A stretch of DNA of 64,000 nt from Hanleya hanleyi. Its lineage: Eukaryota; Mollusca; Polyplacophora; Lepidopleurida; Hanleyidae. The stretch spans positions 78,302 to 142,301 of the forward strand of contig JAVTVY010033707.1 in NCBI GenBank assembly GCA_036873755.1, read 5' to 3'. Positions 21,209 through 42,926 of this stretch are shown piece by piece. The translations under genes were made by a program, and so were the position numbers. Every line of letters starts with the position of its first letter. Positions within the stretch are counted from its first letter, which is position 1. The notes under the pieces are model-generated. The model was given only the letters and a program-made list of their open reading frames with translations, was not told the origin of the DNA and made no database searches.

Positions 21209-21255
21209 AAATTTCGAACTATATGACTTTTGATACACGAGTTAAAAACTGTAAA

Positions 21256-21341: not shown

Positions 21342-21635
21342 GTTTTACATACCACCTGTATTCTATTGTACATACCACCTGTATTCTATTGTACATAGTC
21401 TAACCCTTCTTGTTCACTTACATAAAAAAAAGTCAAAACCATCATTTTGTGTTTTCATGAATCTTTTTTTATTGAACATCAATGAACATCAATGAACGTC
21501 AGAACAACAACGTCATAACAAAAAAACAATAGTACTGCGCAGTGCATTGAATCAATTAAGTTAACCAGAGAAATGGGGCATGCACATTAAAACGAGAGGC
21601 AGTCCATCATAGACGAGTACATCACGGTCTTCGGC
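21342..21635. other. Convergent intergenic region with short repeats and minus-strand poly(A) signal
   Basis: Two direct copies of GTACATACCACCTGTATTCT lie just after the tRNA (about 21345-21395). A minus-strand AATAAA (TTTATT near 21468) is well placed to end the minus-strand transcripts. No coding region was seen. Confidence 0.6.
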
Positions 21636-22031: not shown

Positions 22032-22035
22032 GACT

Positions 22036-23343
22036 CTAGCTGGCGTAGTCACACAGGACGTTTCTTTGCTGATCCACGCTGATGACGTTATCAAACTCGG
22101 CGTAGCAAATCACGTTAATAGTGTGGGCTAGAGCGACCGAGAAACGCAGTTCCAACCGTAAGTTTCCTTTCTTGAGCAAGGCCAGTTGATGATCGTGTTC
22201 CAAGGTGGGGGTGAGGTCGAAGGCGAACAAAGTGTACCCACGGTTAAAGTCTCGTCGAGTGATGGTATTTCCTTCGTCCTGGTTGTTTTGTCCTGTGGCT
22301 GTAAACAGGTTCAGGTAGCTCCGCACATAGTGATGGTTACCAAAATCGGGTTGTAATGGGCGGGCTGGGATTTGATGGCCGGCCACGTGCAGTGCCACAA
22401 AGTTGATGTTGAAATGTTGAAAGTTGAACGGATTCTCATCCCACTGCCCATTGAAAGCGGTGTTGGTCACACACGCCAGGGTAAGACGTTTAGGCAGATC
22501 CCCTAGAAATAAATTTTCACGATTGGCCATCATCGTACCTGCTGGCACAGAGAACACCTTGGTCTGTACGCGTCGGATGGGGTACAGGGCTGGTTTTTTC
22601 GATAAGGCTTCCATGTGACTCAGCAACACGCCCTGTTGCAAATCTACCGTACGGACAAACAGGGCTGCATCTTCTATGACGATCTTGAAATTGGGAGCAT
22701 CTCCACCGGCCATCAAGGCGAACGTAGGTGGGGAACGGATCAACTTGATCTTGATGGATACACCGTTCAGCAAGTAGCGGTCTTGCAGGAACAGATCGGC
22801 GTGCAGTCGTCCCATCATATCAACGGACTTGCTAGTGGCTGTAAACTGCCTGCGATGGCCGAGCCCACCATTGGCAATGGTCAAGGCATCCATGCCTCCG
22901 GGTGTATCCCTGTAGTACAGCGAGGCTTGCAAGTGTGATTTTTTGGCATCTTCGCCGTACGACAACAGCGTCTCGATGTAGGCTCGGTACGGGTACGTAT
23001 TGGTGGACGTACTGATGAGTTTATCGTTCAGACTGATATCCACCTGTTGGAACAAGGAGTGCAGCCAAAGATTCACCGTGCCTACCACCGCATCGTCCGC
23101 CATGGGCGTCCCGTCGTTGTCCATTATTTTGGCTTTCACGTACAAGTACGTGTGGGATAAATCCAGGTAGGCCGTATCTTTGTTTTCAATGGTAAATTCC
23201 AGGGGTCCCGTACCCGTCAGGCTAGCCAGGGGTCGATGTTCTACCCAACGTCCTTCGGCCACACTGGTCTGTGTGGATGGAATAGTCCACAAATCCAATT
23301 CACTGTTGGTAGACGGACACGACTCGGAGTGAATGAATGCCAT
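22036..23343 (-). CDS. Major capsid protein candidate (F54H12.2-like)
   Basis: 435 residues, intact, starting MAFIHSESCPSTNSELDLW. It belongs to the family annotated in many invertebrates as uncharacterised protein F54H12.2-like, which co-occurs with Polinton integrases. It lies at the position and strand of the hexon-like major capsid gene in adintoviruses. Features include the early motif TVNLWLHSLFQQVDISLNDK, the phrase NTYPYRAYIETLLSYG, and a beta-rich remainder with no membrane segment. A double jelly-roll fold is expected from the family, not read from sequence. The ATG overlaps the stop of the basic core protein gene. A homologous but broken copy is in Polinton 2 at 39575-40887. Confidence 0.85.
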   Translation of the reverse strand: MAFIHSESCPSTNSELDLWTIPSTQTSVAEGRWVEHRPLASLTGTGPLEFTIENKDTAYLDLSHTYLYVKAKIMDNDGTPMADDAVVGTVNLWLHSLFQQVDISLNDKLISTSTNTYPYRAYIETLLSYGEDAKKSHLQASLYYRDTPGGMDALTIANGGLGHRRQFTATSKSVDMMGRLHADLFLQDRYLLNGVSIKIKLIRSPPTFALMAGGDAPNFKIVIEDAALFVRTVDLQQGVLLSHMEALSKKPALYPIRRVQTKVFSVPAGTMMANRENLFLGDLPKRLTLACVTNTAFNGQWDENPFNFQHFNINFVALHVAGHQIPARPLQPDFGNHHYVRSYLNLFTATGQNNQDEGNTITRRDFNRGYTLFAFDLTPTLEHDHQLALLKKGNLRLELRFSVALAHTINVICYAEFDNVISVDQQRNVLCDYAS

Positions 23344-23747
23344 TATGCGAAGATGTCTCTCCTACTCTTCTTCTTCTTCCGGGGTGTGCGTCGTCGGTAT
23401 GTCTGTCGTCGAATGACTCTTCGCTGTGCCCGTGGTTGTCTTTTAAGGGCTTTGGCGATCAAGACGCTGCCTGCTTCTCGGGTCCGTCGTTTCAAGGCTT
23501 GTCGGGGTGCCGTGCCTCCCAAGACATCACCGGCCACGTGCAGTCCACTGCGTACCGCTTGTTTAACCACCGCTTTGACACCCCGTGTCACCAAGGGCAA
23601 GAACGTTTTGACGATGCTGCCCAGTATGTTACCCAATCCGTGGCCTCGTTGCATGCGTGCACCGCTAAAGATGGGCAAGCTACCTCCAGTTTGTTTCTTG
23701 TAGTAGTCGGCATAGTTAGCCGTATGGCACTGGTAAGGCACGTACAT
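23343..23747 (-). CDS. Basic virion core / membrane-active protein (pX/pVI-like)
   Basis: 134 residues. The N-terminal ~20 residues end in QTGGS, similar to an adenain cleavage site. Then follow a conserved LPIFSGARMQRGHGLGNILG segment, an amphipathic stretch to about residue 75, and a C-terminal half with many Arg and Lys (RRQTYRRRTPRKKKKSRR). This layout recalls adenovirus precursor proteins that are cut by the viral protease, with a membrane-active peptide and a DNA-condensing tail. That role is inferred from layout and neighbourhood. It sits between the major and minor capsid genes. Confidence 0.7.
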   Translation of the reverse strand: MYVPYQCHTANYADYYKKQTGGSLPIFSGARMQRGHGLGNILGSIVKTFLPLVTRGVKAVVKQAVRSGLHVAGDVLGGTAPRQALKRRTREAGSVLIAKALKRQPRAQRRVIRRQTYRRRTPRKKKKSRRDIFA

Positions 23748-24534
23748 TATACGAAGTGAGGAGAACGTGCTTGTCGGAAATGAAGTGTCAGCACCACTTT
23801 CCCTCGTTCGAATGCGACCGGGTGTCCCGTGTCATCTCTTATATCCACCGTGATCGTGTTGATATCGGTGTGTCGTACGGGTAGGTAGAGTATGTGGTTG
23901 AAACTCTGGGTGACTTGATCGCCATACTTCTTTCTAATGGGTACCACCCGTAACAGAGGCGTGTTCACATCGCCCACAATATGGCTGTCCACTGCGTCCG
24001 AGTAGACGTAGAGTCCGTACATACCTACTTTCATATCCATCACAACGTCACCGTTGTCGGTGGTGGGCCCCGTGTAGACGCTGTAAGGCAGACCTAACAT
24101 TTGCTGTAGCTTAGAACTGAGTTTCACACCCACGTTGGGGCTGAGCAGGATACAGGCCTTGTCGTTGTGTGCGTTGACATCAAGATCACGTGATTCTTGA
24201 AGGGATAGGCTTTCAGGGGTCTTGAACTATTCGTCACCTTCCATAGAGACTTGTAATTCAACAAGGTGAGCAGACCCTCTATGAACGTCTTGGGCGTATC
24301 GTATTGGCCTTCGGGGAGAGTCAGTCGGTTTATTTTGCCTTCGTAGGTCACTTCGTACCATACTTCTTGGTCTCGCACGTTGTACCACGAGTAAGGGTAT
24401 TGGATATCCACCAGTCCACATTCCCACCGTCCAGGTAAATGCAACGGTTGCGGTAATTGAGTCACGTACTTGGCCAAGGTGTTGTCAGGAAACACATCGA
24501 GCGAACTGTTACTGGGCAACGTGAGGTAAAACAT
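23747..24534 (-). pseudogene. Minor capsid (penton-like) protein, one frameshift
   Basis: The true start is the ATG at 24534 (MFYLTLPSNSSLDVF). The frame runs through PLHLPGRWECGLVDIQYPYSW to about 24180, where one base is missing relative to Polinton 2. The rest (SSKLQQMLGL, then GMYGLYVYSDAVDSHIVGDV and FERGKVVLTLHF) continues in another frame to the stop at 23747. The combined order of motifs is that of the conserved invertebrate Polinton/adintovirus minor capsid candidate. The last codons overlap the start of the basic protein gene. Confidence 0.8.
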
Positions 24535-24729
24535 GATGACTGAACTTTCTGGCTTCTGCACCTGGCTTTAATAGGGCTCCCAGGCCTTGGGCGGCTGACC
24601 TCGGCGTCGTGATCGTCGCGGTGACTTAGATCTGGGGGGTTGCAGGGGATGGCGTGGTAAAAGGGGTGACGAAGTAGGTGCCCGTCGTTGTGGTGTTTTG
24701 GGAGGTGATATCGGTGCCCAAGAAGAGGG

Positions 24730-24762
24730 TGGTGGTGGTGGTGGTGGTGGTGGTGGTCTACT
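24730..24762 (-). repeat. GGT trinucleotide run (poly-Pro tract)
   Basis: A run of GTGGTG repeats that encodes ten consecutive prolines in the minus-strand gene. A similar but shorter run is present in the Polinton 2 copy near 42690-42705. Confidence 0.7.
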
Positions 24763-25029
24763 CGTCGATGTCCGCTGCATAAAGGCCCAACGGTTAGGAT
24801 TCCCTACCAATTCTTGAGGGGTGTGTGTGTCTTTTAACCCCTGAGCAAAGGCTTCCCAGCCCGGTGGATTAGAGTGTTTGCGAGAGCGCACCGTATCGTT
24901 GATCAAATCGGTGATATGAGACCCCGGCACCACTCGGTTTCGAATAAGCAGTTCCCCCTGATCGCTCCAACTCATATCGGGATTCTGTTTCACCCGGTCC
25001 AACAATAAACAGTCATGTGACGCAGTCAG

Positions 25030-25071
25030 TATGTCGGCACCTCTTCCCACTTCCCTTATATGTGTTGTAAT
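25030..25071 (-). repeat. 42-bp segment shared with 51279-51320
   Basis: ATTACAACACATATAAGGGA followed by AGTGGGAAGAGGTGCCGACATA is identical at both places, in opposite orientation. Here it interrupts a conserved gene; at 51 kb it lies in non-coding DNA. Confidence 0.85.
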
Positions 25072-25380
25072 TGAATGCCTTAGGGACACTGGCCAACATC
25101 TTCCAGCTGAGGTGAAGATGGCGGTGTTGGTGATTGCGCTGCTGGTAGTGGTGCTGGTGGTGTACTACCCCTATATTGATCCATAAACGTCTTGTACCGG
25201 TTCAGCGTGTGATGGTAGAGTTGAATTTTCTCGTGATCGGGTAGTCGACGTTGGAGTATACTATTCATCTCTTCGTCCAGAGACTGGAGTTGTTGCACCG
25301 TGGCAGGCACGGGATAGGGTGATTGCAAACTCTGTAACAGTCGAGGTTCGACCAGCATCATTTTTTTCGTATGTTCCATG

Positions 25381-25719
25381 TTAGCGTCCCAAGATGGCCC
25401 CTACTAACGGTCCCAGTACGGTGGCGGCTAAGGGTGCGAGGAGTGCTCCGAGAAATCCACCTCGCTGTAACACCTGTTTCTTTTTCTTTAAACTGCCCGT
25501 CTTCTTCACCAGCGTTCGGAGGCCCGTCTTGTGCCGTTGCAATTTCCCTTTCTGCAGGGGACTGAGAGGAACATTCCCTTTTAACACATTATGAGCGACT
25601 TCACACAAACACCGTACCAATTCTGCGCCCGCGCCGCGCACCAGGGCCCGGCCCACCTCCGGTGGCGCGCTGCGTAAAACGCGGAGGGCCGGCGCGTGCT
25701 TCCGTATCCGTGCAGACAT
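25381..25719 (-). CDS. Small basic-hydrophobic virion protein (conserved in Polintons)
   Basis: 112 residues, intact. A central conserved block LVRCLCEVAHNVLKGNVPLS is followed by a Lys/Arg-rich helix and a C-terminal hydrophobic Gly/Ala/Leu stretch (GGFLGALLAPLAATVLGPL). A closely related protein is intact in Polinton 2 (42927-43271), which makes it one of the best-preserved genes. The basic plus membrane-active layout suggests a pVI-like or core role; this is inference. It starts at an ATG about 40 bp downstream of the ATPase stop codon. Confidence 0.75.
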   Translation of the reverse strand: MSARIRKHAPALRVLRSAPPEVGRALVRGAGAELVRCLCEVAHNVLKGNVPLSPLQKGKLQRHKTGLRTLVKKTGSLKKKKQVLQRGGFLGALLAPLAATVLGPLVGAILGR

Positions 25720-25759
25720 GATGAGGAAGTGAATGCTAGAGGGGTTGTGTCTTCTTCTT

Positions 25760-26374
25760 TTATTTGGGTGTGTACACCGTCTGGAACTCGCCGGGAAAAA
25801 TGTGGGTGCGCAATCGAAGTGCCGAGGGTGTCTCTTGTTTCAAGTCGATGAGTAGATACCCGTGAGCCCCTTGGGTGGCATCTTCAAAGGCTTCCCGCAC
25901 AAAGGCCGTGTTTTTAGGGTACATCTGTTTCGCCAGGTGCATAATTTGTGATGCGTCTCTGGGGTTTTTGAATAAGACCACATACTGAGCATTCAAACTA
26001 ATGTTCCTGTGCTCTTTGTTCTTACTGAAGAGATTCTGCACGATGTAGATGATGCTCAACCGACGATGATGGCTTCCTTTGGTAAAAAGCCGGGTGACTC
26101 GACTGTCCGTTTCGGTCATCAGATCGTCTGCCACGACCAACGTGTCTTCTGGGGTGTCCTCTGGGGGTAATCCTTCCACCAAGGTGAGTCCAGGGATGCG
26201 TGCCAGTTCCTCGTACGCAGGTTGCCAAGCTCCATAACACCACAGGATGTGAGCCACGGGAGGTGAAATGAGGGCTGACCCGTGTTGGATGAGCCGTTGA
26301 ACGAAGTGTGTTTTTCCCGACCCCGTCGGTCCAGCGATGAGACACGTGAAAGGATGCTGCCACCGAGGATCCAT
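25760..26374 (-). CDS. A32-type genome-packaging ATPase
   Basis: 204 residues, intact. The Walker A motif GPTGSGKT is at 15-22 and a Walker B-like LVVADDLM has Asp at 83-84. A sensor-type region, SIIYIVQNLFSKNKEHRNIS, is typical of FtsK/HerA-superfamily packaging ATPases of adintoviruses, Polintons and poxviruses. It would pump element DNA into capsids. It lies between the membrane protein gene and the small virion protein gene, the same order as in Polinton 2, where it has one frameshift. Confidence 0.88.
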   Translation of the reverse strand: MDPRWQHPFTCLIAGPTGSGKTHFVQRLIQHGSALISPPVAHILWCYGAWQPAYEELARIPGLTLVEGLPPEDTPEDTLVVADDLMTETDSRVTRLFTKGSHHRRLSIIYIVQNLFSKNKEHRNISLNAQYVVLFKNPRDASQIMHLAKQMYPKNTAFVREAFEDATQGAHGYLLIDLKQETPSALRLRTHIFPGEFQTVYTPK

Positions 26375-26378
26375 AGAG

Positions 26379-26918
26379 TTATGTTTGTCGGCGATCGTAG
26401 TCGTGCGGGTACCGTTGCCGTGGTAAACGTGGTACTCGTCCCACTCTAGGTGTTAGCGTGGTGGTGGTGGTGGAGGTGGTGGTGAGATGTTGCCGTGGTC
26501 TGGTGGAAGGTTCGCTTCTGAGGGTAGATACGGGGGAGGCTGGCGGGGTGAAAAGAGGACTAGACCGCGTAGTGGGCTGGGTGTGTGGTGATAGGGTCCG
26601 CCTTCCGCTTCTGAGGGTAGATACGGGAGGCTGGCGGGTGAAAAGAGGAGTAGACCGCGTAGTGGACTGGGTGTATGGTGATCTGGTCCGCAGCGTCGTA
26701 GGAGAGAGAGTGGTGGTGGTGGTGTTGGGTGATTGCACTTGACGTTGAGGTGGGGCAGCACTTGGACGAATGGCGGGTAGGTTGAAACAGGATATCAGGT
26801 ACGCCAAATCGTAGAAGACTCCTCCAAATAAGGTACCCAGAAGCACTACTACACACACCACGGTACCGACTTGTCCTTTTCGAGTCCGTAGCAGTAAGGG
26901 CAGATGTGCACTATCCAT
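26379..26918 (-). CDS. Ser/Thr/Pro-rich single-pass membrane protein
   Basis: 179 residues. A short charged N-terminus (RTRKGQ) precedes one strong membrane segment at about 16-40 (GTVVCVVVLLGTLFGGVFY), then a long Ser/Thr/Pro-rich region. This contains two direct copies of a ~34-residue unit (TTRSTPLF / TTRSSPLF with STLRS), and a basic tail follows. The orientation suggests a type II protein with a mucin-like outer domain. The Polinton 2 homologue keeps the membrane segment and phrase GGVFYD but has an unrelated repeat unit, so the outer part evolves fast. Attachment or membrane function is plausible but unproven. The stop lies four bases before the ATPase ATG. Confidence 0.65.
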   Translation of the reverse strand: MDSAHLPLLLRTRKGQVGTVVCVVVLLGTLFGGVFYDLAYLISCFNLPAIRPSAAPPQRQVQSPNTTTTTLSPTTLRTRSPYTQSTTRSTPLFTRQPPVSTLRSGRRTLSPHTQPTTRSSPLFTPPASPVSTLRSEPSTRPRQHLTTTSTTTTTLTPRVGRVPRLPRQRYPHDYDRRQT

Positions 26919-26962
26919 GGTACAACCCTACACTGAAGGTTGTAGGCGATGTGAGGTAGAAT

Positions 26963-28123
26963 TTATAGCCGTTTCATGTCACGGGCTGAGACCCAGGAAT
27001 TAAACGAACTGGGCCAACCTTGCCATTTGACGAAATGATAGGGGATGCCACGTCGACGTTCCGTTTTCAAAATCTTTTCCACCGTGTAGTAATCTTTCCG
27101 TGTTTTCACCACCGGTTGTAATTCTGCCTCGTAAAACGTGCCTTGCAGTGTTTCTCCTTGTAGATCTTCCAGTTGATAGACGTGTGGATGTCGAGGCTTA
27201 TGGCGAACGATGACAAAGTGCTCGTCACTCCAGTTGGGCAAGTAACTTTTCTCAAATTGCCCTTTGACTTTACTGATCCGTACCACATCTCCGCGTTTGT
27301 AACGGGGTGACGTGAGTGGACTGGGGTCTATCGAGTACAGCGTACGGCGCACTTGATGTTCGTTGCGTTCTGTCACATCGAGGGGAGCTCGCTGGATACT
27401 GCGATGATAGGCTCGATTGTACCCTTGGACCAGTTTAGGTAGCACATCGATGTACCGTCGGGTGTTTTTGGCGGTAAAATACTTGTACATTCGTCCTTTG
27501 AAGGTGCGATTGAATCGTTCCACCACAGAGGCTTTGGTCTCGTTGTACGTATGGAAGAAAAACACCTTCTGTTTCTTAAGAAAGGCTTGAAAGTGATGGT
27601 TGAGAAATTCTGTGCCTTCATCCGTTTGCAAATAGAGGGGTTTGCGTCCCGTCTTGAAAATCTGCTGGAACGCACGTACCAGATTCTCTCCTGTTTTGGT
27701 CCGGATGGGCAGTACCCATGCGTACTTGGATAAAATATCGATACAGGTCAACATGTACCGATGTCCATCATTGTGGGGTGCAAATCGACTCATATCGACC
27801 AAATCAGCCTGCCATTGTGCGCCTACGCCTCCTACGATGACTCGGTTACGGCGAAAATGTCGTCGGGCTGCTCGATGTAAGCTATAAGTGTCTTGGGTTT
27901 TTAACCATTCTCGAACTTCAGTTCGACTGATGCCTTGGGAATGTGCAGCTCGAGCGAGCGCTCCCACAGCGCTATAAGCGGCTGGACTGGTAGGGTTGTA
28001 ATACAAATCTGTTAACACCTTGTTCACAGTGGTACGCCACGTGGATTCCTGCCGCCCAGCTTTTCGGATTCCCTTTCGGGTCCCCCTCTGCGTCTTCCTT
28101 GCGCTGTTGTGTGTTCGCTTCAT
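26963..28123 (-). CDS. Polinton integrase with chromodomain
   Basis: 386 residues, intact. An N-terminal basic and helical region leads into a retroviral-type rve core with the catalytic triad at about D107 (WQADLVDM), D168 (LQTDEGTEF) and E202 (VVERFNRTF). A C-terminal chromodomain follows (about 345-386: YYTVEKILKTERRRG, VKWQGWPSSFNSW). This is the F54H12.3-like integrase family. It joins element ends to target DNA with a 6-bp stagger, consistent with the AATGAG duplication. The chromodomain may steer integration to marked chromatin. The gene lies between the PC4-like repeat protein and the membrane protein gene. Confidence 0.92.
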   Translation of the reverse strand: MKRTHNSARKTQRGTRKGIRKAGRQESTWRTTVNKVLTDLYYNPTSPAAYSAVGALARAAHSQGISRTEVREWLKTQDTYSLHRAARRHFRRNRVIVGGVGAQWQADLVDMSRFAPHNDGHRYMLTCIDILSKYAWVLPIRTKTGENLVRAFQQIFKTGRKPLYLQTDEGTEFLNHHFQAFLKKQKVFFFHTYNETKASVVERFNRTFKGRMYKYFTAKNTRRYIDVLPKLVQGYNRAYHRSIQRAPLDVTERNEHQVRRTLYSIDPSPLTSPRYKRGDVVRISKVKGQFEKSYLPNWSDEHFVIVRHKPRHPHVYQLEDLQGETLQGTFYEAELQPVVKTRKDYYTVEKILKTERRRGIPYHFVKWQGWPSSFNSWVSARDMKRL

Positions 28124-28156
28124 GAGTAGACACTGACACTCTAGCCTGTGTGCACC

Positions 28157-28843
28157 CTATAGATATAGTACTTCATCGACAATGGGGAGTACTTTTTCCA
28201 AGGCTGTCCATAGATCAGGGTCCAGAGTAAAACCACCTCGCTTCAGACAGAGGAGTCGAGCAAAATAGGGACAGCGGAAAATGTAGACGTCGTCACACAG
28301 GTGAATGCTATCACCGTCCAGGTCACCCAACAACACCCGTTTCAAGGTAGTCCAGCCTTCTGGTGACAAAGAGACACGCGCTTGGGGTTCAGACGCACAC
28401 CAACACCTACTGTCGTCATCGATGAGCTCCACTCGTTTGGGGTACAACAATAGGGTGCAGCCAGGTGTAAGAGTGCGGGTAGCCACAGAGTTCGCGTCGG
28501 GGTACAGTAAGTCGTGGACGTCGGTGATAATAGCTTTCAGCGCCTGCCATAATGCCGGACGGAGTATGATAGGGGGACCACCACGCTCTTCTAACCGGGG
28601 AAAAAAAGAATCATCTCTACCACTTCGTAGGTAGACACCTACTCCCACGTGCATGAAATCGACTTCGGGCTCTTTTCCCTGTAACAACCGTGTCAATAGA
28701 GTCCATCCTGCTAGGGTTAAACATAGCTTCACCTCTCGGGGTTGTTCTTCGATGAGCTGCAGTTGATGGTCATAGACGATCAGGGTGACGTGGGTAGTGA
28801 GTTGGAACAAGGCAAGCTCCCCAAGTGCTCCGTGCGCTGCCAT
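28157..28843 (-). CDS. Protein with two PC4-like repeat units
   Basis: 228 residues from the ATG at 28843, which has a strong Kozak context (ACCACCATGG). Two ~100-residue units follow each other. Each has two strands, an LxxxGWxxLxRLL motif (residues ~50 and ~157), a DDVYI or GVGVYL strand, then a final LxPxLWxALxxVxxxVDEVL motif. The strand-strand-GxxLxxxxWxxL pattern resembles the PC4/p15 single-stranded-DNA-binding coactivator fold. The same unit occurs once in the CARD gene of this element and once in each of two Polinton 2 genes. A role in element transcription or replication is inferred; the fold assignment is tentative. Confidence 0.55.
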   Translation of the reverse strand: MAAHGALGELALFQLTTHVTLIVYDHQLQLIEEQPREVKLCLTLAGWTLLTRLLQGKEPEVDFMHVGVGVYLRSGRDDSFFPRLEERGGPPIILRPALWQALKAIITDVHDLLYPDANSVATRTLTPGCTLLLYPKRVELIDDDSRCWCASEPQARVSLSPEGWTTLKRVLLGDLDGDSIHLCDDVYIFRCPYFARLLCLKRGGFTLDPDLWTALEKVLPIVDEVLYL

Positions 28844-29088
28844 GGTGGTGAATGACAAAACACCGACTAGGGAGGCCTATATATATCGAATGGTCCACGT
28901 TGTGGTTTTTATTTTTCCATCACCCTTCGTGAAAGTCCGTGATCACTCGGTAGTGTCTATTAAACCCCTAGTCCGTAGCCGTACACGTTATAGTTTTTTT
29001 TTCATGCCTCTCTCTCTATCCGTACCCGTATACGTTATAGTTTTTTATTTTCCTCCACCTTCGTGAAAGTCCGTGATCATTCGGGCTG
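28844..29088. other. Intergenic, short duplicated motifs
   Basis: Contains two copies of CACGTTATAGTTTTTTT-like sequence (about 28985 and 29031). It also has repeated TTCGTGAAAGTCCGTGATCA (about 28926 and 29060; a third copy is near 29190). No gene. It separates the minus-strand virion block from the plus-strand accessory genes, so promoters for both directions are expected here. Confidence 0.55.
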
Positions 29089-29620
29089 TAATGTTATAGA
29101 GATACGAATGGATTTAACCTGGGAATTTGCCATACCCAATTTTGTGCAAAATGAGAGGATTGTGAGTTGACCCAGGATGCATCACTCGCGCCATCGTGAA
29201 AGTCCGTGATCATTCGGGGTGTAATGTTATAGAGATACGAATCGATTTAACCTGGGAATTTGCCATACCCATTTTTGCGCAAAATGAGAGGATTGTGAGG
29301 TGACCCAGGATGCATCAGTCGCGCCTAAAATTGGACCAATCAGCGACGCGTAGTTCAACCCTAATGTTATAGAGATATGCATTGATTTAACCTGGGGAAT
29401 TTGCTATACTAATTTTGTGCAAAATGAGAGGATTCTGACGTGACCCAGCAGGCATCAGTCGCGCCTAAATTGGGCCAATCAGCGACGCGTAGTTCAACTC
29501 TAATGTTATAGAGATACGAATGGATTTAACATGGGAATTTGCTATATCAATTTTGTGCAAAAAGCGAGGATTGAAAATTAACCCAGGGAGGTATGCTGCT
29601 CGTGTTATTGGGCCAATCAG
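29089..29620 (+). repeat. Four ~135-140-bp tandem repeats carrying CCAAT boxes
   Basis: Copies begin TAATGTTATAGAGATACGAA near 29089, 29222, 29361 and 29501 and include GGATTTAACCTGGGAATTTG, GTGCAAAATGAGAGGATT and TGACCCAGGATGCATC. Later copies end in GGGCCAATCAGCGACG, an NF-Y-type CCAAT box. The array leads straight into the promoter of the Gln-rich protein gene. Confidence 0.85.
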
Positions 29621-29724
29621 CGACGTTTATATCAACCAATGGCGAGGCCGGAGACAGAACCAATGAACGAGGATCACCCCCGTTGAAACAGCCAATGAAA
29701 ATCTACTCTAGTTTCAGTATAAAA
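29613..29724 (+). promoter_or_regulatory. CCAAT/TATA promoter of the Gln-rich protein gene
   Basis: CCAAT boxes at 29613, 29636, 29660 and 29692 are followed by TATAAAA at 29718-29724, 73 bp before the ATG at 29797. Clustered CCAAT boxes with a TATA box are typical of strong, cell-cycle-linked metazoan promoters such as histone genes. That parallel fits the histone-type 3' end of the same gene. Confidence 0.7.
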
Positions 29725-29796
29725 CCAGGGGTCGCGTGGGGAGAAGCTTCATTCAAACCACTTTTCTCATACGCTGAACACGTATACATCACAATC

Positions 29797-30252
29797 ATGA
29801 GCCGTGTTGCCAAGATGTCGACCACCAAAGGTGCAGCGAAAGAGGGGCGGGAGACAGATGAATTGGCGAGGGCCGTGAGAGAATATTGGCTGGGTGAAAT
29901 AAAGAAGTTGACACGGGACAACACGAACATCACACCGCTCGCCTGGGCCGATTTATATGATCTAGTGACAAGGGCGCCGGCCGATTTGCTGGGGCGAGAC
30001 TGGTTAGACTGCCTGCCAGATGTGTTGGACGAACACCAACAACAACAACAACAAGAGTTCGTCGACATTGACGAATTGCCACGAATCCCACCAGCGCGCT
30101 TTCTGGACGATCTACCGGCAGATTCCTCCTCCTCTGATGACGATGCGGAGCGAGAGCCTGGCCAACAACAACAAGAACAACAACAACAACAACAACAGGC
30201 TGGCCGATACGTTTTGCAGCCTGGCCGGTACTTTTCCGCCAGTTTGGAGTAG
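29797..30252 (+). CDS. Gln-rich acidic accessory protein
   Basis: 151 residues from the ATG after the TATA box (MSRVAKMSTTKGAAKEG). A helical N-terminal half contains WLGEIKKLTRDN, DLYDLVTRAP and RDWLDCLPDVLDEH. It is followed by a poly-Gln run, an acidic casein-kinase-like cluster (SSSSDDDAERE), a second Gln run and a C-terminal pair of AGRYVLQPGRYF-type phrases. No known domain. The layout of a short Cys-containing motif before an acidic serine cluster recalls small DNA-virus cell-cycle regulators, but the Rb-binding LxCxE motif is not complete (LDCLP). The gene ends with a histone-type stem-loop 50 bp downstream. Confidence 0.65.
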   Translation: MSRVAKMSTTKGAAKEGRETDELARAVREYWLGEIKKLTRDNTNITPLAWADLYDLVTRAPADLLGRDWLDCLPDVLDEHQQQQQQEFVDIDELPRIPPARFLDDLPADSSSSDDDAEREPGQQQQEQQQQQQQAGRYVLQPGRYFSASLE

Positions 30253-30301
30253 ACAGGCAAACTCCTCCTGAATAAAACAGGGTAAACAAATTGACCTTAA
30301 C

Positions 30302-30317
30302 GGCCCTTTTCAGGGCC
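30302..30317 (+). terminator. Histone-type mRNA 3' stem-loop (Gln-rich gene)
   Basis: GGCCCTTTTCAGGGCC forms a 6-bp stem with the UUUC tetraloop and fits the metazoan histone 3' stem-loop consensus at every position. It is followed by ACCCC, as in histone mRNAs, and by a purine-rich ACGAAAGGGGAAC 10-15 nt further, where U7 snRNA would bind. It starts 50 nt after the stop codon. An AATAAA also lies at 30270-30275, so both kinds of 3' end are possible. Confidence 0.8.
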
Positions 30318-30850
30318 ACCCCAATCTTACGAAAGGGGAACTTCTAACTTGGCACATTCAATTCAAATCAGGTCCTACATGGTGAATCTCCTCTCCTCTA
30401 TATTCTATGATTACCAATCTCCAACCCCCCAAAAAAATCCCTGCCCTCAACGGTCCTTTTCAGCGCCAACCCCTAGCCTTCCAAAACACAGTAGACCCTT
30501 TTTTGCAGTGTTCAGGGCCAACCCATGCAAAATCCCCTCTACCCATCTCCCACACCTCACAAACAATTTTTTTTTACACTCGGCTTTTTCCGGGCCACCT
30601 CGGTAGTGCTCAATCTCCTCACCTCTCTCATTACCAATCTCCCACAACGAAAAATTTTTTTTTACACTCGGCTTTTTCCGGCACTATTCGGTTACCGTAC
30701 ATTCATACTAATACCTGGGCGCTGTTAGTAGGAAGTTTCCATTTACTAAGTGTTATTTACCTATTGTTACCTAGGTGTGTGCATGTGCAGGAGTTGGTGT
30801 TTTTTTTTAGTGCTTTTAATTAGAAGCTTCCTCTTTCGAAAGATTGGGGT
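30318..30850. other. Intergenic with decayed copies of the stem-loop region
   Basis: Degenerate relatives of the 3' stem-loop segment recur: GGTCCTTTTCAGCGCCAACC at about 30459, and CGGCTTTTTCCGGGCCACC and CGGCTTTTTCCGGCAC near 30584 and 30670. They lie among tandem ~75-90-bp units with poly-T runs and ACCAATCTCC phrases. This may be what remains of tandem gene duplications. No intact coding frame was accepted. Confidence 0.6.
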
Positions 30851-30866
30851 GGCCCTGAAAAGGGCC
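30851..30866 (-). terminator. Histone-type mRNA 3' stem-loop (minus-strand RING gene)
   Basis: Read on the minus strand this is GGCCCTTTTCAGGGCC, a perfect consensus match, followed by ACCCC and then TTTCGAAAGAGGAAGC (AAAGAG is the core of the histone downstream element). It begins 20 nt after the stop codon of the RING gene at 30886. Confidence 0.82.
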
Positions 30867-30885
30867 GTTAGGAAGATGTAAGGGG

Positions 30886-31248
30886 TTACATCGTTCGGGT
30901 CAGATTTTCTCTCCTCTGGGCACACACAGGGCATTCGAGGGCGATGAGTTTACACTCTATGGGGTTGTCAGTGGACGTAGGCTGTGGTGTTCGTGCATGT
31001 CTGTGAATACAGGAAATACACAAGGCTTGGTGTCCACATGGAAATATAGCGTATTTGGCGAAGCGACTACAGCATTCGACACAGCGTAAATACTGTGGCG
31101 CTTTCCATATTGTGTCTGGCCCCAGTCTTCTTCTTATTGCGGTAGAGTAGTACTCCATCTCTTGCTGCTGTAAAATAGCCATCTCTTCTTCTTCTTCTTC
31201 TTCTTCTTGTTCTTTTTTTTCTCTTTCTGTTTCTTGGTCTTCTCCCAA
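30886..31248 (-). CDS. RING-finger protein with LxCxE motif
   Basis: 120 residues. A strongly acidic Glu-rich helix (about 8-30) leads to a C3HC4-type RING at 56-109: C56, C59, C71, H73, C77, C80, C106, C109. The sequence LRCVE at 54-58 fits the retinoblastoma-binding LxCxE motif, but its Cys is also the first zinc ligand, so both functions together are doubtful. A likely E3 ubiquitin ligase acting on a host or element target. It is divergent from the plus-strand RING gene starting at 31282, with only 33 bp between start codons, and both have histone-type 3' stem-loops. Confidence 0.72.
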   Translation of the reverse strand: MGEDQETEREKKEQEEEEEEEEMAILQQQEMEYYSTAIRRRLGPDTIWKAPQYLRCVECCSRFAKYAIFPCGHQALCISCIHRHARTPQPTSTDNPIECKLIALECPVCAQRRENLTRTM

Positions 31249-31281
31249 CCCATCTTGTAATGGCGGCTGTAAAATGACAAA
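31249..31281. promoter_or_regulatory. 33-bp divergent promoter between the two RING genes
   Basis: The whole interval between the two start codons is 33 bp and includes TAATGGCGGCTG, a YY1-type motif like those in the TIRs. No TATA box is visible. Transcription start sites probably lie within or just inside the opposite coding regions, so the two transcripts may overlap at their 5' ends. Inferred from position only. Confidence 0.45.
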
Positions 31282-31605
31282 ATGACAACACCACCACCAT
31301 CACCTCTAGCAGAGATCGGCCGCCTGAACGCACAGGTTGATCAGTTAGAAGAGGACAAGTGTAAACTACGTGTACAACTGACTAAGGAAGAGAATAAATC
31401 CACCTGTACCGTGTGTAACATCGAAGAGACCATGTACGCCTTCTTCCCGTGCGGTCACCTATGCCTATGTCCCGTATGCTTGGTATCCCTAACATGTATA
31501 GGGGGGACGTGCCAGTGCAGTGAGACGGAGGAACTGCATTTGAAAATACGATGCCCTGTGTGTAGGACGTGGGTGGCAGGCGTGAAATTTTTTTTCCGCC
31601 CGTAA
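31282..31605 (+). CDS. Coiled-coil RING-finger protein
   Basis: 107 residues from an ATG (MTTPPPSPLAEIGRLNAQ). A short coiled coil lies at about 10-40, then a RING with C42, C45, C57, H59, C63, C66, C91 and C94 (CTVCNIEETMYAFFPCGH, RCPVCRTW). The spacing of CxxC-CxH resembles the RINGs of IAP and MDM2-type E3 ligases. A Cys-rich loop (TCIGGTCQCSE) between the third and fourth pairs is longer than usual. It shares its promoter region with the minus-strand RING gene and is probably a paralogue of it. Confidence 0.72.
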   Translation: MTTPPPSPLAEIGRLNAQVDQLEEDKCKLRVQLTKEENKSTCTVCNIEETMYAFFPCGHLCLCPVCLVSLTCIGGTCQCSETEELHLKIRCPVCRTWVAGVKFFFRP

Positions 31606-31627
31606 CAGTGTGATGACACTTTCCAAA

Positions 31628-31643
31628 GTCCCTTTTCAGGGCC
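31628..31643 (+). terminator. Histone-type mRNA 3' stem-loop (plus-strand RING gene)
   Basis: CCAAA precedes GTCCCTTTTCAGGGCC, then ACCCCAATCTTTCGAAAGAG. The 5' and 3' flanks are those of histone mRNAs, and the AAAGAG downstream element is present. One stem pair (second position) is a mismatch. It starts 23 nt after the stop codon. The segment is an inverted copy (over 43 bp) of the one after the minus-strand RING gene. Confidence 0.75.
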
Positions 31644-31832
31644 ACCCCAATCTTTCGAAAGAGGAAGCTTCTAACTCAAAGCACAAAAAACACCAGCTCC
31701 CATCACCAATATGAAAACCTAAGGTCGTCACCACAGTAGACTCTTAGTGTTGAATTTTTTTAATACAATTATCTTTGCAAAGAATGAACACTAACACACA
31801 TTTTGAATTTCTACTATTTTTATTAACACAAT

Positions 31833-32242
31833 AGAATGAACGTCTTCACCACAGTAGACTCTTGGTATTGAATTTTTTTAATACAATTATACGCTATCAA
31901 GGCGCTTAAATGAACGTAGAATGAACATAGAATGAACATAGAATGTAGGAATACGGTAATGTCTGAATGTTCAATGCAATAAGACTTGTGTGAAATGTTC
32001 AATATTTATGCAACAAGACTATTTTTATTAACACAGTAGAATGAACGTCTTCACCACAGTAGACTCTTGGTATTGAATTTTTTTAATACAATTATACGCT
32101 ATCAAGGCGCTTAAATGAACGTAGAATGAACATAGAATGAACATAGAATGTAGGAATACGGTAATGTCTGAATGTTCAATGCAACAAGACTTGTGTGAAA
32201 TGTTCAATATTAATGCAACAAGACTTGTTTGAACTCGTCATC
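31833..32242. repeat. Two ~205-bp tandem repeats
   Basis: AGAATGAACGTCTTCACCAC opens a unit at 31833 and again at 32038. Each contains AATTTTTTTAATACAATTAT, CGCTATCAAGGCGCTTAAAT and a run of GAACATAGAATGAACATAGA. A partial third copy precedes them (31720-31800). The last unit runs into the 3' end of the CARD-PC4 gene. Minus-strand AATAAA signals (TTTTTATTAAC) are included. Confidence 0.85.
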
Positions 32243-33455
32243 GTCTTTCCGCCCCTGGTGCACGTAGATGAAGGTGGCAATCTGTTCACGTGGAATTCTG
32301 GGTGGACAGGCAGCTTCCAATGCCTGGGCAATTTGCACCTCGTTCACGTCCTGTAGTGACTCAGTGATGAGCGCGTCTGATGGTATGCTATTGTCCACAC
32401 ACGTATGCGTGTTGAAGAGCCCGTTCTTGTTCACACAGCCTGCACATTGCTGGATACGCAAGTGTCGAATGCGGGGTCTGAGATCATCCAGGAATGTGTC
32501 GATGTACTTCTTATAAATATACTGAGACACCTGGTCAGACAGGACTTCATGAATTACAGCTGTGAGACTCTGCAGCTTCCGCCACGCAGGTATTTTCAGG
32601 GTGACGCCCTGAGAACAAGGAATACGCTTTTGCGTATCTGACCTCATTTTCCATTTCCGAATATGCACGAGGAGCATGTTGTTGAATGTAGAACAGGTGA
32701 CAAAGATGTCGTCACCCACATAAAATTTCGCTTCGTCACTCCCCTGGTGGTCAATGACCGCATCGACGGCGTAATCAATGGCCTGTACTCTTATCCAGGT
32801 GTCCAACGTCAAGGCGATATGCTTAGGTGGTTTGTCGTCCCAGGCCGGTGCGTTAAAATGCACTTCCTCTTCTTTCACACTCACAGTTAAATAGGGAGAG
32901 AGCTCCCAAGTGTTCGTGTGGGCCGCCTGGTAGGCCTGCTGGATAATGTCATTGATCTCCTGCACAGACATAGGAAGTAGCACCTCTTCTTTCGCTTGCT
33001 CAGGCACTTGCTGGGGCACTGGCTGAAGCACTTGCTGAGGTATTTCTAAAAGTGTTAGTCGGGGCCGTTTGGGTAGTAGCACCGGGTTTGGCAGGTAGAC
33101 CGGACTCTTGGTGCTTACGTTTGGTAGCTGTACACTCTTCGGCGATGTCCATGTCCATGACTAAGATATTATCTTCTGAATCCTGGGCTTGAAGTAGATC
33201 TGCTAGTTCTTCATTTCCCGTCTTCTTCAGCGCCTCCACGAAGGCTAGAAATGCATAGGGGCCACGGCGCAGTAGATCGTCGATTAGGGCTCTGTTTTGT
33301 CGTGAAGTGGTCTTCTGCGCCATGATATCTTCGACACCGTGTTTAAGGATTATGTTTTCCACCATAAGCAGATCACATAGTTCGGCCACATGCTGCATCT
33401 CATCAATGAGGCGAACACGATACTGTTGAAGCTTAGCTCGCTGGGATGACTCCAT
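32210..33455 (-). CDS. CARD-PC4 protein, probably spliced (exons 33119-33455 and 32210-33045)
   Basis: Exon 1, from the ATG at 33455, encodes a caspase-recruitment domain at residues ~7-88. It has a six-helix pattern with the signature DLLRRGPYAFLAFVEALKK near 62-80. A charged Ser/Thr linker follows. The downstream frame (32210-33082) has no ATG until 32971. It contains a PC4-like unit: LTLDTWIRV, then KFYVGDDIFVTCS, IRKWKM and GVTLKIPAWRKL, with a Cys-rich C-terminus. A 73-nt intron (33046-33118) with GTAAGC donor, CTAAC branch-like site and TTTTAG acceptor would join the two frames exactly. CARDs mediate apoptotic and inflammasome assembly, so modulation of host death or immune signalling is a reasonable inference. 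It is driven from the right TIR promoter. Confidence 0.75.
33046..33118 (-). other. Predicted 73-nt intron in the CARD-PC4 gene
   Basis: On the minus strand the segment starts GTAAGCACC, holds CGACTAACAC (branch-point-like CTAAC) and ends CACTTTTAG. Both flanking frames are open, and removing the segment brings them into register. Without splicing the CARD frame runs on to 33000 and ends in a low-complexity Ser/Ala tail. Evidence is from sequence only. Confidence 0.6.
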
Positions 33456-33520
33456 GACTGTGGGCTCAGGCTGGTCAGTAGCTGCTAGGGTGAGATAGGC
33501 TGGTGAAGTTGCACTGGTAA

Positions 33521-34067
33521 GGTCAGGTAGGCAGGCTGGTCAGGCAGGCAGGCTGGCAGGCAGGCAGGTAGGTGAGATAGCTCCGTTGGGTAGTGCAATG
33601 AATACACCAAACCACTAGAAATCGCCCCTTTTATACGTTTTTTCCCACAATGGCGGCCAATGGCCGCCACCTTCGGGTCTTTCCGGTCAATATCCGCCAT
33701 TTTGGAAAATGGCGGCCAATGGCGGTCACCTTCGGGTCTTTCCGGTAAATCCGCCATTATCCGCCATTTTGGAAAATGGCGGCCAATGGCGGTCACCTTC
33801 GGATCTTTCCGGTAAATCCGCCATTATCCGCCATTTTGGAAAATGGCGGTCAATGGCGGTCACCTTCGGGTCTTTCCGGATTATCCGCCATTATCCGCCA
33901 TTTTCCCATAATGGCGGCCGGGAAAAACCCCAGTACATAAAAAGACACGGAGAGACACAGACAAGTCTGGACATGTCCAAAGGTCACGCCCCATTCACCC
34001 AAATCGGAAGTGACGTCATTTTTACATCTGGGTGAAAGGGGACTCGATTCCCGTTAACACTACTACT
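33521..34067 (-). repeat. Right terminal inverted repeat of Polinton 1
   Basis: Reverse complement of 16834-17327, with four rather than three copies of the YY1-motif repeat (the TCTTTCCGG phrase recurs near 33675, 33735, 33806 and 33877). It carries the mirrored TATA box at 33629-33635, about 175 bp upstream of the CARD gene start, and the CRE-type TGACGTCA near 34011. It ends CTACTACT at 34067. Confidence 0.9.
33629..33635 (-). promoter_or_regulatory. TATA box of the CARD-PC4 gene
   Basis: TATAAAA on the minus strand within the right TIR, identical in context to the polymerase TATA box in the left TIR. The CARD gene ATG is at 33455. Confidence 0.7.
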
Positions 34068-34073
34068 AATGAG

Positions 34074-36592: not shown

Positions 36593-38476
36593 TTTTCCAG
36601 GGAGGTAACTCTTGGTCCCAATTTTTCCGCCAGGGGGTGCCACCAGTCCCGTATGACGTCACTTCCGGTCTGGGTGAATGGAGCGTGACCTTGCCGTATG
36701 ACGTCACTTCCGGTCTGGGTGAATGGGGCGTGACCTGTGAACATGATAGGATATGTACTGACCTGTCTGTGGGGCCTCAATGTCGTTCATCTCCGTGTCT
36801 TTTCGGTGAGCGGAACATGTACTGGGGTTTTTCCCACAATGTCGTTCACCTCCGTGTTTCTTCGGTCAGGTCCGTGTCTTTTCGGTGAGGTCCGTGGGAA
36901 CATGATAGGAGATTGCAAAATTGTTGCACGTTCGCTACAATGTTGCGAAGATGTCACGGAGATCACCGAAGAGACACGGAGGTGCCCGAAGAGACACGGA
37001 GATCCCCGAAGGGGGCGAGAGGGGTCCCTAGTGTACCGATGGGGTCGTATGAGGTATCAATGTGAAGCATTCGTGAAGGGGCATCTGATGGGGTGGGTGC
37101 GGGGTTGAAATATCGTCATTCTGCGCATGCGCGGTAGACCAAGGGTATGGAAATAGACGTTTTGGGGTCTAGGGGAGCCCCTAGTGGTCCGATGGAGTCC
37201 AGTGTGGTATCAATGTGAAGCCTATGTGAGGGGGCATCCGATGGGCTGCGTGTGGGGTTGGAATATGGTTATTCTGCGCATGCGCGGTAGACCAAGGGTA
37301 TGGAAATAGCCGTTTTGGGATCTAGGGGAGCCACTAATGGACCGATGGGGTCGAGTGAGGTATCAATGTGAAGTCTATGTGAGGGGGCATCCGATGGGCT
37401 GGGTGTGGGGTTGGAATATGGTCATTCTGCGCATGCGCGGTAGACCAAGGGTATGGAAATAGACGTTTTGGGGTCTAGGTGGGTCCCTAATAGACCGATG
37501 GGGTCGAGTGAGGTATCAATGTGAAGCCTATGTGAGGGGGCATCCCACTGGATGGATGTGGGGTCGGAATATCGTCATTCTGCGCATGCGCAATAGAGAA
37601 AGGGTATGAAAATAGACGTTTTGGGATGTAGGTGAGCCCCTAATGAGCCGATGGAGTTGAGTGAGGTATCAATGTGAAGCCTATGTGAGCGGGCATCCGA
37701 TTGGACTAGGGTCTCGGCCGTTGTCCACATTCTGCGCATGCGCAGACAGGGAATTCTGGGAAAGGGTGTGGAAATAGACGTTTCAGGGTTTAGGTGAGCC
37801 CCTAATGATCCTATGGTGTCGTATGGGGTCTTATTTTGAAGCTGTCGTGAGGGAGCATCCGCCTGGGCTAGTGTGTCGTTCGTTGTCAATAGTCTGCGCA
37901 TGCGCAGTCTGGCCGTAGTATAGAAAAAGACGTGTTGGGATTTAGGTAGGCCCCTAATGGTCTGATGGGATCGAGTGAGGTATCGATGTAAAGCAGTCGT
38001 GAGGGAGTATCCGGCGGGGTGGGTGTGACGTGGAACTGACGTCATTCTGCGCATGCGCAGTAGAGAAAGTGTATGGAAACTATGGGTCCGATGGAGTCGT
38101 ATGAGGTCTTATGTTTAAGCTCCTGTGAAGCAGCATCCGATTGGACTCAGGGTTCGTCCGTGTTCAAGGGTCTGCGCATGCGCAGTCTGGTCGTAGTATA
38201 GAAAGCAGGCATGTTGGGGGATGCGTGGGTGTGTGTGACCCATCACTAGGGGTCCATGGTTGGGGTTGGGTGGTGGTGTGGGTTCTGCGCACAGACGTCA
38301 CTTCCGGGTTTCACTAAAACTAACTTCGAACACAGAAGAGTTCCAATGTTCCCCTTAGACGTAGGGTCCGGATGTTCAACCTCCGGGGGTTTTTCCGGCC
38401 CGGCCCGGCCCGGCCCCGCCGCGCCCCGGCCGCAGCGCGCGCGGGTTACTCCGGCCGCAGCGCGCGCGCGCGCGCG
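36593..38476 (+). repeat. Left TIR of Polinton 2
   Basis: Reverse complement of about 47716-49631. In order: GGGAGGTAACTCTTGG; two copies of a ~42-bp block with TGACGTCACTTCCGG (CRE plus ETS-type motif) and GGTGAATGGGGCGTGACC, as in Polinton 1; TCCGTGTCTTTTCGGTGAGG repeats (36795-36900); eight ~152-bp NRF1-motif repeats (37070-38200); then a block with CCAATGTTCCCCTTAGACG and a GC-rich CCCGGCCCGGCCC/GCGCGCGC inner end. Confidence 0.85.
37070..38200 (+). promoter_or_regulatory. Array of eight NRF1-type palindromes spaced ~152 bp
   Basis: CTGCGCATGCGC(A/G) occurs at about 37121, 37273, 37427, 37579, 37732, 37893, 38046 and 38171, i.e. at 152, 154, 152, 153, 161, 153 and 125 bp. The core TGCGCATGCGCA is the NRF1 consensus. 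Each repeat also carries GAGGTATCAATGTGAAGCC, GGTATGGAAATAGACGTTTT and GGGGTCTAGG. Some units have GGGAATTCTGGGAAAGGG, similar to ZNF143-type promoter sites. Regulatory function is inferred. Confidence 0.6.
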
Positions 38477-38704
38477 CCTTATCCGGCCGCACGCCTGCGC
38501 GGGTGAATTTCGGATTATCCTAGGCCACTGATGGGCTACTTTCTCCACGGTGTTCGAAGCTAGTTTCGCTGAATCCCCACATGTCTGTTATAGCCTTCAT
38601 GCATTATGCTCATATAGAAAACACACAAGACAGGGTTTTTTGGGTGAGATCTCATTTTGTTTTTTTATTCAACAACAACAACGTGAGAACAACCACGTGA
38701 AAAC
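38477..38704. other. Inner flank of the Polinton 2 left TIR
   Basis: No gene. A minus-strand AATAAA (TTTTTTATTC near 38659) could serve the protease-capsid transcripts. A polymerase B gene would be expected around here by analogy with Polinton 1, but none is present. Confidence 0.5.
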
Positions 38705-38852
38705 TGAAGCCCAGAACAGGGGGCTTGTACATTGAAATCGATAAAACTTAGCCCAGAACAGGGGGGCTTGAACATTGAAAGAACTTAAGCCCAGAACAGG
38801 GGGGCTTGTACAGTGAAAGAACTTAAGCCCAGAACGGGGCTTGTACATTGAA
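38705..38852. repeat. Tandem ~37-bp repeat (four copies)
   Basis: TTAAGCCCAGAACAGGGGGG followed by CTTGTACATTGAAA recurs four times, with GAAC or ATCGATAAA spacers. It is located just after the 3' end of the protease pseudogene. Non-coding. Confidence 0.85.
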
Positions 38853-38889
38853 ATGATGGGCGGCCCAGTCATATACGAGTACATCTCGG

Positions 38890-39573
38890 TCCTCGGCCTT
38901 GGGGTACTCGTCAAACATCTGTACGATGGTAGATAACGGTCTTCGCCGGCATCGATGGTACAGGTAAAACAAGCAATATTGTCCTCACACGCTACTGGTC
39001 AGGCTGACGACTCTATAACGAATATTATGGATTAAGAATACTGATCAGCGATACGGATTTGATATTTTTGGAACATCATGATGTCTTGCCGTCATCATTG
39101 AAAACTGTTGACCGCTTCTCTCTTGCAGGAAACAAGCCTATGTTTATGTATACTATGATTGTCTTTTTGAATTTGGTGCTAATACTGTTATGTGGAAAAT
39201 GGAATAGGTCTTTGGATTATGGACGCGGATATTCTGTAATGGACGACGGCTGGATTATGAATGACGGACTAGACGCTTGCAATTTGCAACGTTTGACTGT
39301 TCCAACACCACGTCTCTGTGCCTTGATCCATGAAGTCTGTTAAATCGGGATGGAGGGGTGGCAGGCCGTAAGGGTCAAAGTATTCGCCCTGCTGTTCTGT
39401 CAAGTACACGCCCACCCAATGTTCACCGGGCCGATCCATCGGTCCGTGTTGAGAACGTAAGCAGCAGGATACATACGGTCTAATGGGAACACATCTCGGG
39501 CGAACACCCCTTGAAAGACCATACGTGTCTCTGGGTCATTCTCCAGCACCGTGGTTATCTGGTCTGTATTCAT
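38890..39573 (-). pseudogene. Adenain-like protease of Polinton 2, split by an insertion
   Basis: The 5' part (start MNTDQITTVL at 39573) matches the Polinton 1 protease, with GVFARDVFPL and AAYVLNTD. A frameshift lies near 39435, and the following EYFDPYG-type segment is in another frame. Homology stops near 39297 and resumes at about 39010, with the Cys-containing C-terminus and the tail downstream of it. The intervening ~285 bp is a dispersed repeat. Confidence 0.75.
39012..39297 (+). repeat. Dispersed repeat inserted in the protease pseudogene
   Basis: AGCGATACGGATT, TTGGAACATCATGATGTCT, TTTGGATTATGGACGCGGAT and TGGATTATGAATGACGGAC are shared with 53093-53285 in the same orientation. At 53 kb the repeat continues upstream into a segment (52938-53050) that is also present at 15700-15800. 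No coding capacity or clear target duplication was found. Confidence 0.7.
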
Positions 39574-39574
39574 G

Positions 39575-40887: not shown

Positions 40888-40889
40888 GT

Positions 40890-41294: not shown

Positions 41295-41296
41295 TA

Positions 41297-42912: not shown

Positions 42913-42926
42913 TTTTTTCGTGTGGT

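Follow-up and report, generated by a model that had tools for sequence, protein, structure and literature searches.

Three accessory genes of a Polinton in the genome of Hanleya hanleyi end in stem-loops of the kind that closes replication-dependent metazoan histone mRNAs. The element occupies 17,234 bp (16834–34067) of the 64,000-nt stretch that we analysed as a whole and call the window (assembly GCA_036873755.1, contig JAVTVY010033707.1, positions 78,302–142,301). There, the 3′ ends of a glutamine-rich (Gln-rich) gene and of two RING-domain genes carry a 6-bp stem, a UUUC or UUUU loop, SLBP-type flanks and a purine element 13–14 nt further on, and such histone-type signals appear to be retained throughout a large Polinton population. 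Judged by their sequences, the RING genes satisfy the cis requirements of histone-type 3′ processing, for which reason we hold it very likely that their intact copies make mRNAs processed by SLBP and the U7 small nuclear ribonucleoprotein (snRNP).

Stem-loops in the window

The stem-loops, all three announced by a sequence-only reading of this DNA, stand at 30302–30317 on the plus strand (T1, after the Gln-rich gene, longest open reading frame (ORF) 29593–30252), at 30851–30866 on the minus strand (T2, after the minus-strand RING gene, 30886–31182, 98 aa) and at 31628–31643 on the plus strand (T3, after the plus-strand RING gene, 31282–31605, 107 aa), each in the sense orientation of its upstream gene. 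They lie 49, 19 and 22 nt past the stop codons; the 50, 20 and 23 nt claimed earlier differ by counting convention. ACCCC follows each of them and a purine element starts 13 nt past each stem, as that reading had it (T1, 30331–30338, +, GAAAGGGG; T2, 30830–30837, −, GAAAGAGG; T3, 31657–31664, +, GAAAGAGG). Pfam found no histone domain in the RING or Gln-rich proteins, so the upstream genes are non-histone genes; the RING domain itself (PF13920) was matched at 4.4e-7 in the plus-strand protein and at 1.3e-5, below its cut-off, in the minus-strand one.

We scored the sites with the Rfam Histone3 model (RF00032; gathering score, 34 bits). T1, T2 and T3 reached 33.7, 33.6 and 23.5 bits, with E-values of 2.5e-7, 2.9e-7 and 0.0017 in a 2.7-kb stretch searched against 4227 families and of 5.9e-6, 7e-6 and 0.041 across the whole window, where no further match appeared up to E 5. 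Thus, the model check that the sequence-only reading had proposed came out positive in substance, but the curated threshold was missed by all three. The histone consensus that it claimed is there: the 6-bp stem and 4-nt loop of RF00032 are complete in T1 and T2, and one pair, the second of the stem, is mismatched in T3. When the sites were folded with their flanks, 1/200 shuffles did as well for T1, 11/200 for T2 and 154/200 for T3. Chance is ruled out as the origin of the stem-loops, both by the E-values and because they recur in relatives.

The three 3′ ends are copies related to each other (T2 and T3, 90% identical over 72 nt; T1 and T2, 95% over 43 nt). Within the window, only the minus-strand RING gene has a stem and a purine core that are both free of blemishes; the T1 core contains a G that is common to its relatives. 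A further stem-loop remnant with one mismatch to the consensus, T4 (30452–30467, +), has no downstream purine element. T4 and the relatedness of the three ends go beyond what the sequence-only reading mentioned, as do two poly(A) hexamers near T1 and T2 that are described below.

Relatives, controls and host genes

We searched the window's own genome (2.48 Gb) for relatives. The 82-nt T2 cassette gave at least 40 matches at 93–100% identity, the window included (best 40 of 1763 first-look candidates). In 30 cassette loci, one of them the window itself (L017), tblastn found a minus-type RING match in 30/30, a T1-like stem-loop recurred in 27/30 and a T4-like one likewise in 27/30; at least 14 of the 39 non-window matches were within 5 kb of an integrase copy, among at least 107 integrase copies listed. 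Genome-wide, RF00032 gave at least 74 matches, 72 of them above the gathering score (75 of 360901 candidates scored). Upstream genes were assigned for 68 of the 74 matches listed: 29 were plus-type and 7 minus-type RING genes (36 confirmed by tblastn), about half of the listed matches, and the others comprised one histone H1 gene (PF00538, 6.4e-21), one DDE-transposase ORF and 30 copies of a 106-aa coiled-coil gene. Another Polinton gene was shown for a minority of the 36 RING-linked matches: at L009 and L010 a PC4 gene adjoins the RING gene at 72% identity with the gene order of the window kept, and at L099 there is an integrase at a distance of 3.5 kb.

Matches chosen by their stem-loop are biased by score, and RING copies were therefore chosen anew on protein similarity alone. 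The plus-strand RING protein retrieved copies 78–100% identical (150 matches scored of 6593 candidates), and we read the 170-nt 3′ flanks of 40 of these 150, spread by hand down the ranking, in which the match reached the last residue. Two of the 40 had an inner stop, and in 38 the stop codon stood where it was expected. RF00032 matched the coding strand in 37/40 (E ≤0.1), 16 times above 34 bits and never in L139, L141 and L157, and our own stem-loop scorer accepted 38/40, as against 5/10000 shuffles at the same threshold. A diverged type was sampled with the protein of L009, whose RING region is 53–57% identical to that of the window; L009 itself came from the stem-loop search, and its copies were picked by protein (151 matches, 147 of 8510 candidates scored). 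Among 20 flanks read, 19 had an RF00032 match, 17 of them above 34 bits; the miss was L189.

Taken together, 56/60 protein-chosen copies in this genome had an RF00032 match and 33/60 scored above the gathering score, so the element that the sequence-only reading had proposed to look for behind the RING genes of relatives was indeed there. All RF00032 matches in the 60 flanks were on the coding strand, and in matching flanks the stem stood 20–27 nt from the protein end. AATAAA or ATTAAA within 170 nt was found in 0/40 window-type and 0/20 diverged-type flanks, so that the RING genes sampled, like replication-dependent histone genes, have no polyadenylation (poly(A)) hexamer behind them. Integrase genes served as a control: RF00032 matched 0/20 of their 3′ flanks, taken from the best-ranked full-length stop-free copies among at least 107, and our scorer gave 15–17 in integrase flanks versus 21–24 in RING flanks. 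A simple dispersed hairpin repeat is ruled out because the relatives were found by protein, not by repeat. Weak opposite-strand matches to CTV_rep_sig in diverged-type flanks were treated as chance. Outside this genome, pattern scans of IMG/VR returned 0 and 2 stretches, neither of which matched RF00032 up to E 1 (at L001, the site has a long ORF on either side), and IMG/VR integrase scans returned no relatives; the plus-strand RING protein of the window had no homologs at E 0.001 in a protein search.

Could the signal be a passive relic, a captured histone 3′ end that spread unused with the elements and owes its likeness to their amplification? The window's plus-strand RING gene is 48–57% identical to seven relatives in amino acids and 45–64% at third codon positions, and the 59-nt 3′ block starting 7 nt before the stem is 78–89% identical in the same pairs; the seven were selected by stem-loop score. 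Stem, flanks and element have thus been kept in families with third positions just 45–64% identical to those of the window's gene. Stem pair 4 was C-G in 62, U-A in 10, U-G in one and broken in one of 74 Polinton-type stems, and among 19 protein-chosen diverged stems it was U-A in 14 and C-G in 5, with zero intermediates; read from these stems, C-G to U-A is a compensatory change. The relic would account for T1–T3 being related copies, for the decay of the window's own element and for a likeness that extends beyond the purine element. It would also fit a comparison among the seven diverged relatives themselves, in which the block (69–93% identical) shows no clear advantage in conservation over third codon positions (57–91%). 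From these last two findings it follows that common descent explains part of the likeness. Set against the compensatory pair, the position of the stem 20–27 nt from the protein end and the 0/60 flanks with an ordinary poly(A) hexamer, we judge a mere relic improbable.

A second hairpin stands 5–9 nt (mostly 7) upstream of the stem-loop in plus-type RING, minus-type RING and host H2B and H1 genes (host loci listed with it: L113, L115, L004) and was not seen in two host H3 genes tested. Its sequence differs among these four groups; its length is 5–8 bp in plus-type and 7 bp in minus-type genes, in the latter with a left arm containing the stop codon. In the window it lies at 30875–30892 (−), 8 nt before the T2 stem and with its left arm overlapping the stop codon, and at 31607–31620 (+), 7 nt before the T3 stem, where it is weak (47/300 shuffles as good). 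Elsewhere, shuffles as good per 300 numbered 2–11 in diverged plus-type relatives, 3–21 in two window-type copies, 0–1 in minus-type genes, 5–6 in H2B, 7 in H1 and 170 and 300 in H3. The resulting tandem-hairpin structure, and the placing of T1/T2 and T3/PC4 at convergent gene ends, would suit a general terminator or insulator hairpin that acts between convergent genes independently of SLBP and U7. Such a hairpin is highly improbable in our view: besides the hairpin, both the single-stranded flanks and the element complementary to U7 have been kept, RF00032 matches in the 60 flanks are confined to the coding strand, and integrase genes have no stem-loop.

How do these ends compare with those of the host? 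Host H3 (L107–L110, C-terminus RIRGERA) and H2B genes (L113–L115, C-terminus AVTKYTSSK) have the same stem as the Polinton ends, GGCCCTTTTCAGGGCC, and carry a GAAAGAGAACTTC...GCAC block resembling the Polinton one; after the stem they have AACCA, whereas the Polinton cassettes have ACCCC. Out of 12 histone flanks, 7 fitted the strict pattern, L111, L112, L117 and L118 were variant by eye and L116 had none. A purine element matching the Polinton one stands in host H3, H2B and H1 genes, and the Polinton cassettes are 52–82% identical to host 3′ ends (H1, H3, H2B, one H2A-like and the 106-aa gene) without a clear single donor. A search for U7 brought up two candidates with the same sequence over the 240 nt compared, in which CUCUUUC stands upstream of AAUUUGUCGAG, a motif that we take to resemble the U7 Sm site. 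Computed duplexes between the 5′ end of the candidate U7 and the downstream elements reach −10.8 to −13.1 kcal/mol for T1–T3, for diverged RING genes and for host H1, H3 and H2B, and 3–28/1000 shuffles did as well; for T4, where the element is missing, the value was −3.3 kcal/mol and 965/1000 shuffles did as well. The SLBP/U7-type processing proposed by the sequence-only reading thus draws support from the 56/60 RING versus 0/20 integrase flanks, the compensatory pair and the host likeness.

Besides the two findings on likeness given above, several others weigh against histone-type processing of these genes: (i) T1–T3 are all under the gathering score, two by 0.3–0.4 bits and T3 by 10.5, and a default Rfam scan reported none of them; (ii) 27/60 protein-chosen relatives are under that score as well, 4 of these without a match; (iii) covariation is limited to one stem pair, and every relative comes from one genome; (iv) the best U7 score was 27.1 bits, under the gathering score of 34, with an E-value of 0.89; (v) an AATAAA (30271–30276, +) lies between the Gln-rich stop and T1, 18 nt past the stop and at the same position in relatives, and an ATTAAA lies behind T2 at 30820 (−); and (vi) T3 is mismatched at a stem pair read by SLBP, as are 6/38 protein-chosen relatives. 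Since the AATAAA is conserved, the Gln-rich mRNA may be polyadenylated, and this gene may have two alternative endings. As to T3, position 7 is presumably, by the usual numbering, the second base of the stem. SLBP binding requires a guanine at position 7 (PMC10388802). T3 is predicted from its second-pair mismatch to be weak; fully paired copies exist elsewhere.

The second-pair mismatch is also the commonest stem variant in the protein-chosen sample (6/38), and it recurs across cassette backgrounds (L120, L132, L143, L147, L149 and L158; T1 of L031; T2 of L032 and L035).

Other genes of this genome share the ending. The 106-aa coiled-coil gene, which has no Pfam match, bears perfect histone stem-loops at 30 of the 68 RF00032 matches examined (L003, L005, L007, L008, L050–L058, L065, L067–L072, L075–L078, L083–L087, L106); the ORF is near full-length in 18, and the other 12 were assigned through ORF remnants and flanks. 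The gene lies partly in a tandem array of ~4.4-kb units (contig C35382), and its protein has 10 public homologs, none named. By sequence, this family too consists of non-histone genes with histone-type ends. At L088, a perfect histone stem-loop that has no clear purine element lies 33 nt behind a DDE_Tnp_4 transposase ORF.

The Polinton and its surroundings

The element that carries the stem-loop genes is a Polinton, as the sequence-only reading had it: it has terminal inverted repeats (16834–17322 and 33524–34067; 252 nt at 98% plus 205 nt at 91% identity), it ends in AGTAGTAGT...ACTACTACT, and AATGAG stands on either side as a 6-bp target site duplication (16828–16833 on the left, 34068–34073 on the right). 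Its minus strand encodes an adenain-like protease (21636–22031; PF00770, 22.2 bits versus a cut-off of 21.3), a putative A32-type packaging ATPase (25760–26374; PF04665, E 3.8e-4, 20.4 bits, under the cut-off of 22.8) and an integrase with a chromodomain (26963–28123; PF00665, 4.9e-11; PF00385, 1.3e-6). Among named integrases, those nearest to it belong to a chiton and to lancelets. Candidate ORFs for the major and minor capsid proteins (22036–23343 and 24124–24534) had no Pfam match above cut-off. To the right of the RING genes, a PC4-domain gene (32210–32971, −; PF02229, 5.6e-8) and a CARD-domain gene (33000–33455, −; PF00619, 1.8e-15) are without an RF00032 match.

A DNA polymerase B-like region (17591–21208, +), assigned by its motifs and with zero polymerase matches in Pfam, is spread over three frames (17591–19855, 19590–20699 and 20675–21208), and the window's copy is therefore broken. 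The RING ORFs of the window are shorter at the N-terminus than those of their relatives (98 versus up to 289 aa, minus; 107 versus up to 311 aa, plus). This copy of the Polinton is decaying.

Like Polinton/Maverick (adintovirus-like) elements, the one described here has inverted repeats with AGTAGT/ACTACT ends, a 6-bp duplication, a chromo-integrase, a protease and an accessory region, besides the putative ATPase; it differs in that its accessory genes carry histone-type 3′ signals. Vertebrate Mavericks are described in one study as ending in AGT twice and ACT twice and as having accessory regions (PMC8097293); the words "histone", "stem-loop", "polyadenylation" and "RING" have 0 occurrences in its main text.

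Between the polymerase and protease genes lies a tRNA match (21256–21341, +; 48.9 bits, above the gathering score). Four tandem repeats of ~135 nt (29058–29586) separate the virion gene cluster from the Gln-rich gene and contain CCAAT boxes, three of them paired; CCAAT occurs 10 times versus 3.2 expected in 28844–29770, the majority inside the repeats, and a scan of the same interval for cell-cycle promoter motifs found no E2F site. The repeats are possibly a two-way promoter. A second, more decayed Polinton copy (36593–49631) has no stem-loop and no tblastn match to the Gln-rich, RING, PC4, CARD or polymerase ORFs. A probable retroelement lies at 10796–13748: of its two long ORFs, the second matches a retroelement aspartyl protease slightly under the cut-off (PF13975, 7.9e-6).

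A probable histone-type ending for accessory genes

What would the ending do? In metazoans, SLBP binds to the stem-loop and, together with the U7 snRNP, recruits cleavage factors; histone genes are intronless and their mRNAs are destabilised at the end of S phase (PMC5706932 and PMC12775136). The RING genes are single open frames, and they share with histone genes the stem, loop, flanks, spacing and purine element. SLBP and the U7 snRNP would bind the pre-mRNAs of these intronless genes, cleavage would fall directly past the ACCCC flank, and no poly(A) would be added. By a further step, RING mRNAs would be made, translated and destroyed together with histone mRNAs, so that RING proteins, probably E3 ligases to judge from their domain, would appear during DNA replication or while histone mRNA is stockpiled in the embryo or germ line. 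Integrase and similar genes would do without the ending. Capture of the cassette from a host histone gene probably preceded the split of the Polinton families.

We think it probable, from the sequences compared, that a Polinton lineage adopted the histone 3′-end code for its host-manipulating accessory genes and that selection has acted on it across diverged families. On the same reading, gene expression would fall into two classes, an ordinary one for the integrase and presumably the virion genes, and a histone one for the RING genes that would follow host DNA synthesis or else the embryo and germ line, both histone-rich; this division we also favour. Coupling to S phase is what we infer from the signals; in a wider form, a selected coupling of the RING ending to DNA synthesis or to histone-rich cells seems to us the better supposition. 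Histone-type processing might instead serve expression in the germ line, oocyte or early embryo, which are rich in histone mRNA factors, without following S phase. Inheritance demands transposition in germ cells, and oocytes are described as keeping histone mRNA stable regardless of the cell cycle (PMC12803260). This variant, which we consider a serious if somewhat less likely prospect, is compatible with the processing part of the reading that we favour.

The ending differs from that of histone mRNAs in standing behind non-histone genes of a mobile virus-like element, where its processing is predicted from sequence. A virus-type genome that exploits SLBP has a precedent in SARS-CoV-2, whose frameshift RNA is bound by SLBP (PMC12166091); that case concerns the frameshift element of an RNA virus, and the present one DNA elements and mRNA 3′-end formation. 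We found no paper pairing "Polinton" with "histone stem-loop" in searches that left subscription journals mostly outside, and among the titles listed none dealt with such 3′ ends in DNA viruses or transposons; this silence is weak evidence of novelty.

If our reading is true, these Polintons hold a class of animal non-histone mRNAs that use the histone ending by design. Its presence on non-histone genes of mobile elements would show that the code is portable, and more than 100 natural copies would form a set for studying recognition by SLBP and U7. It would also offer a clue to how such elements bring their genes into step with DNA replication.

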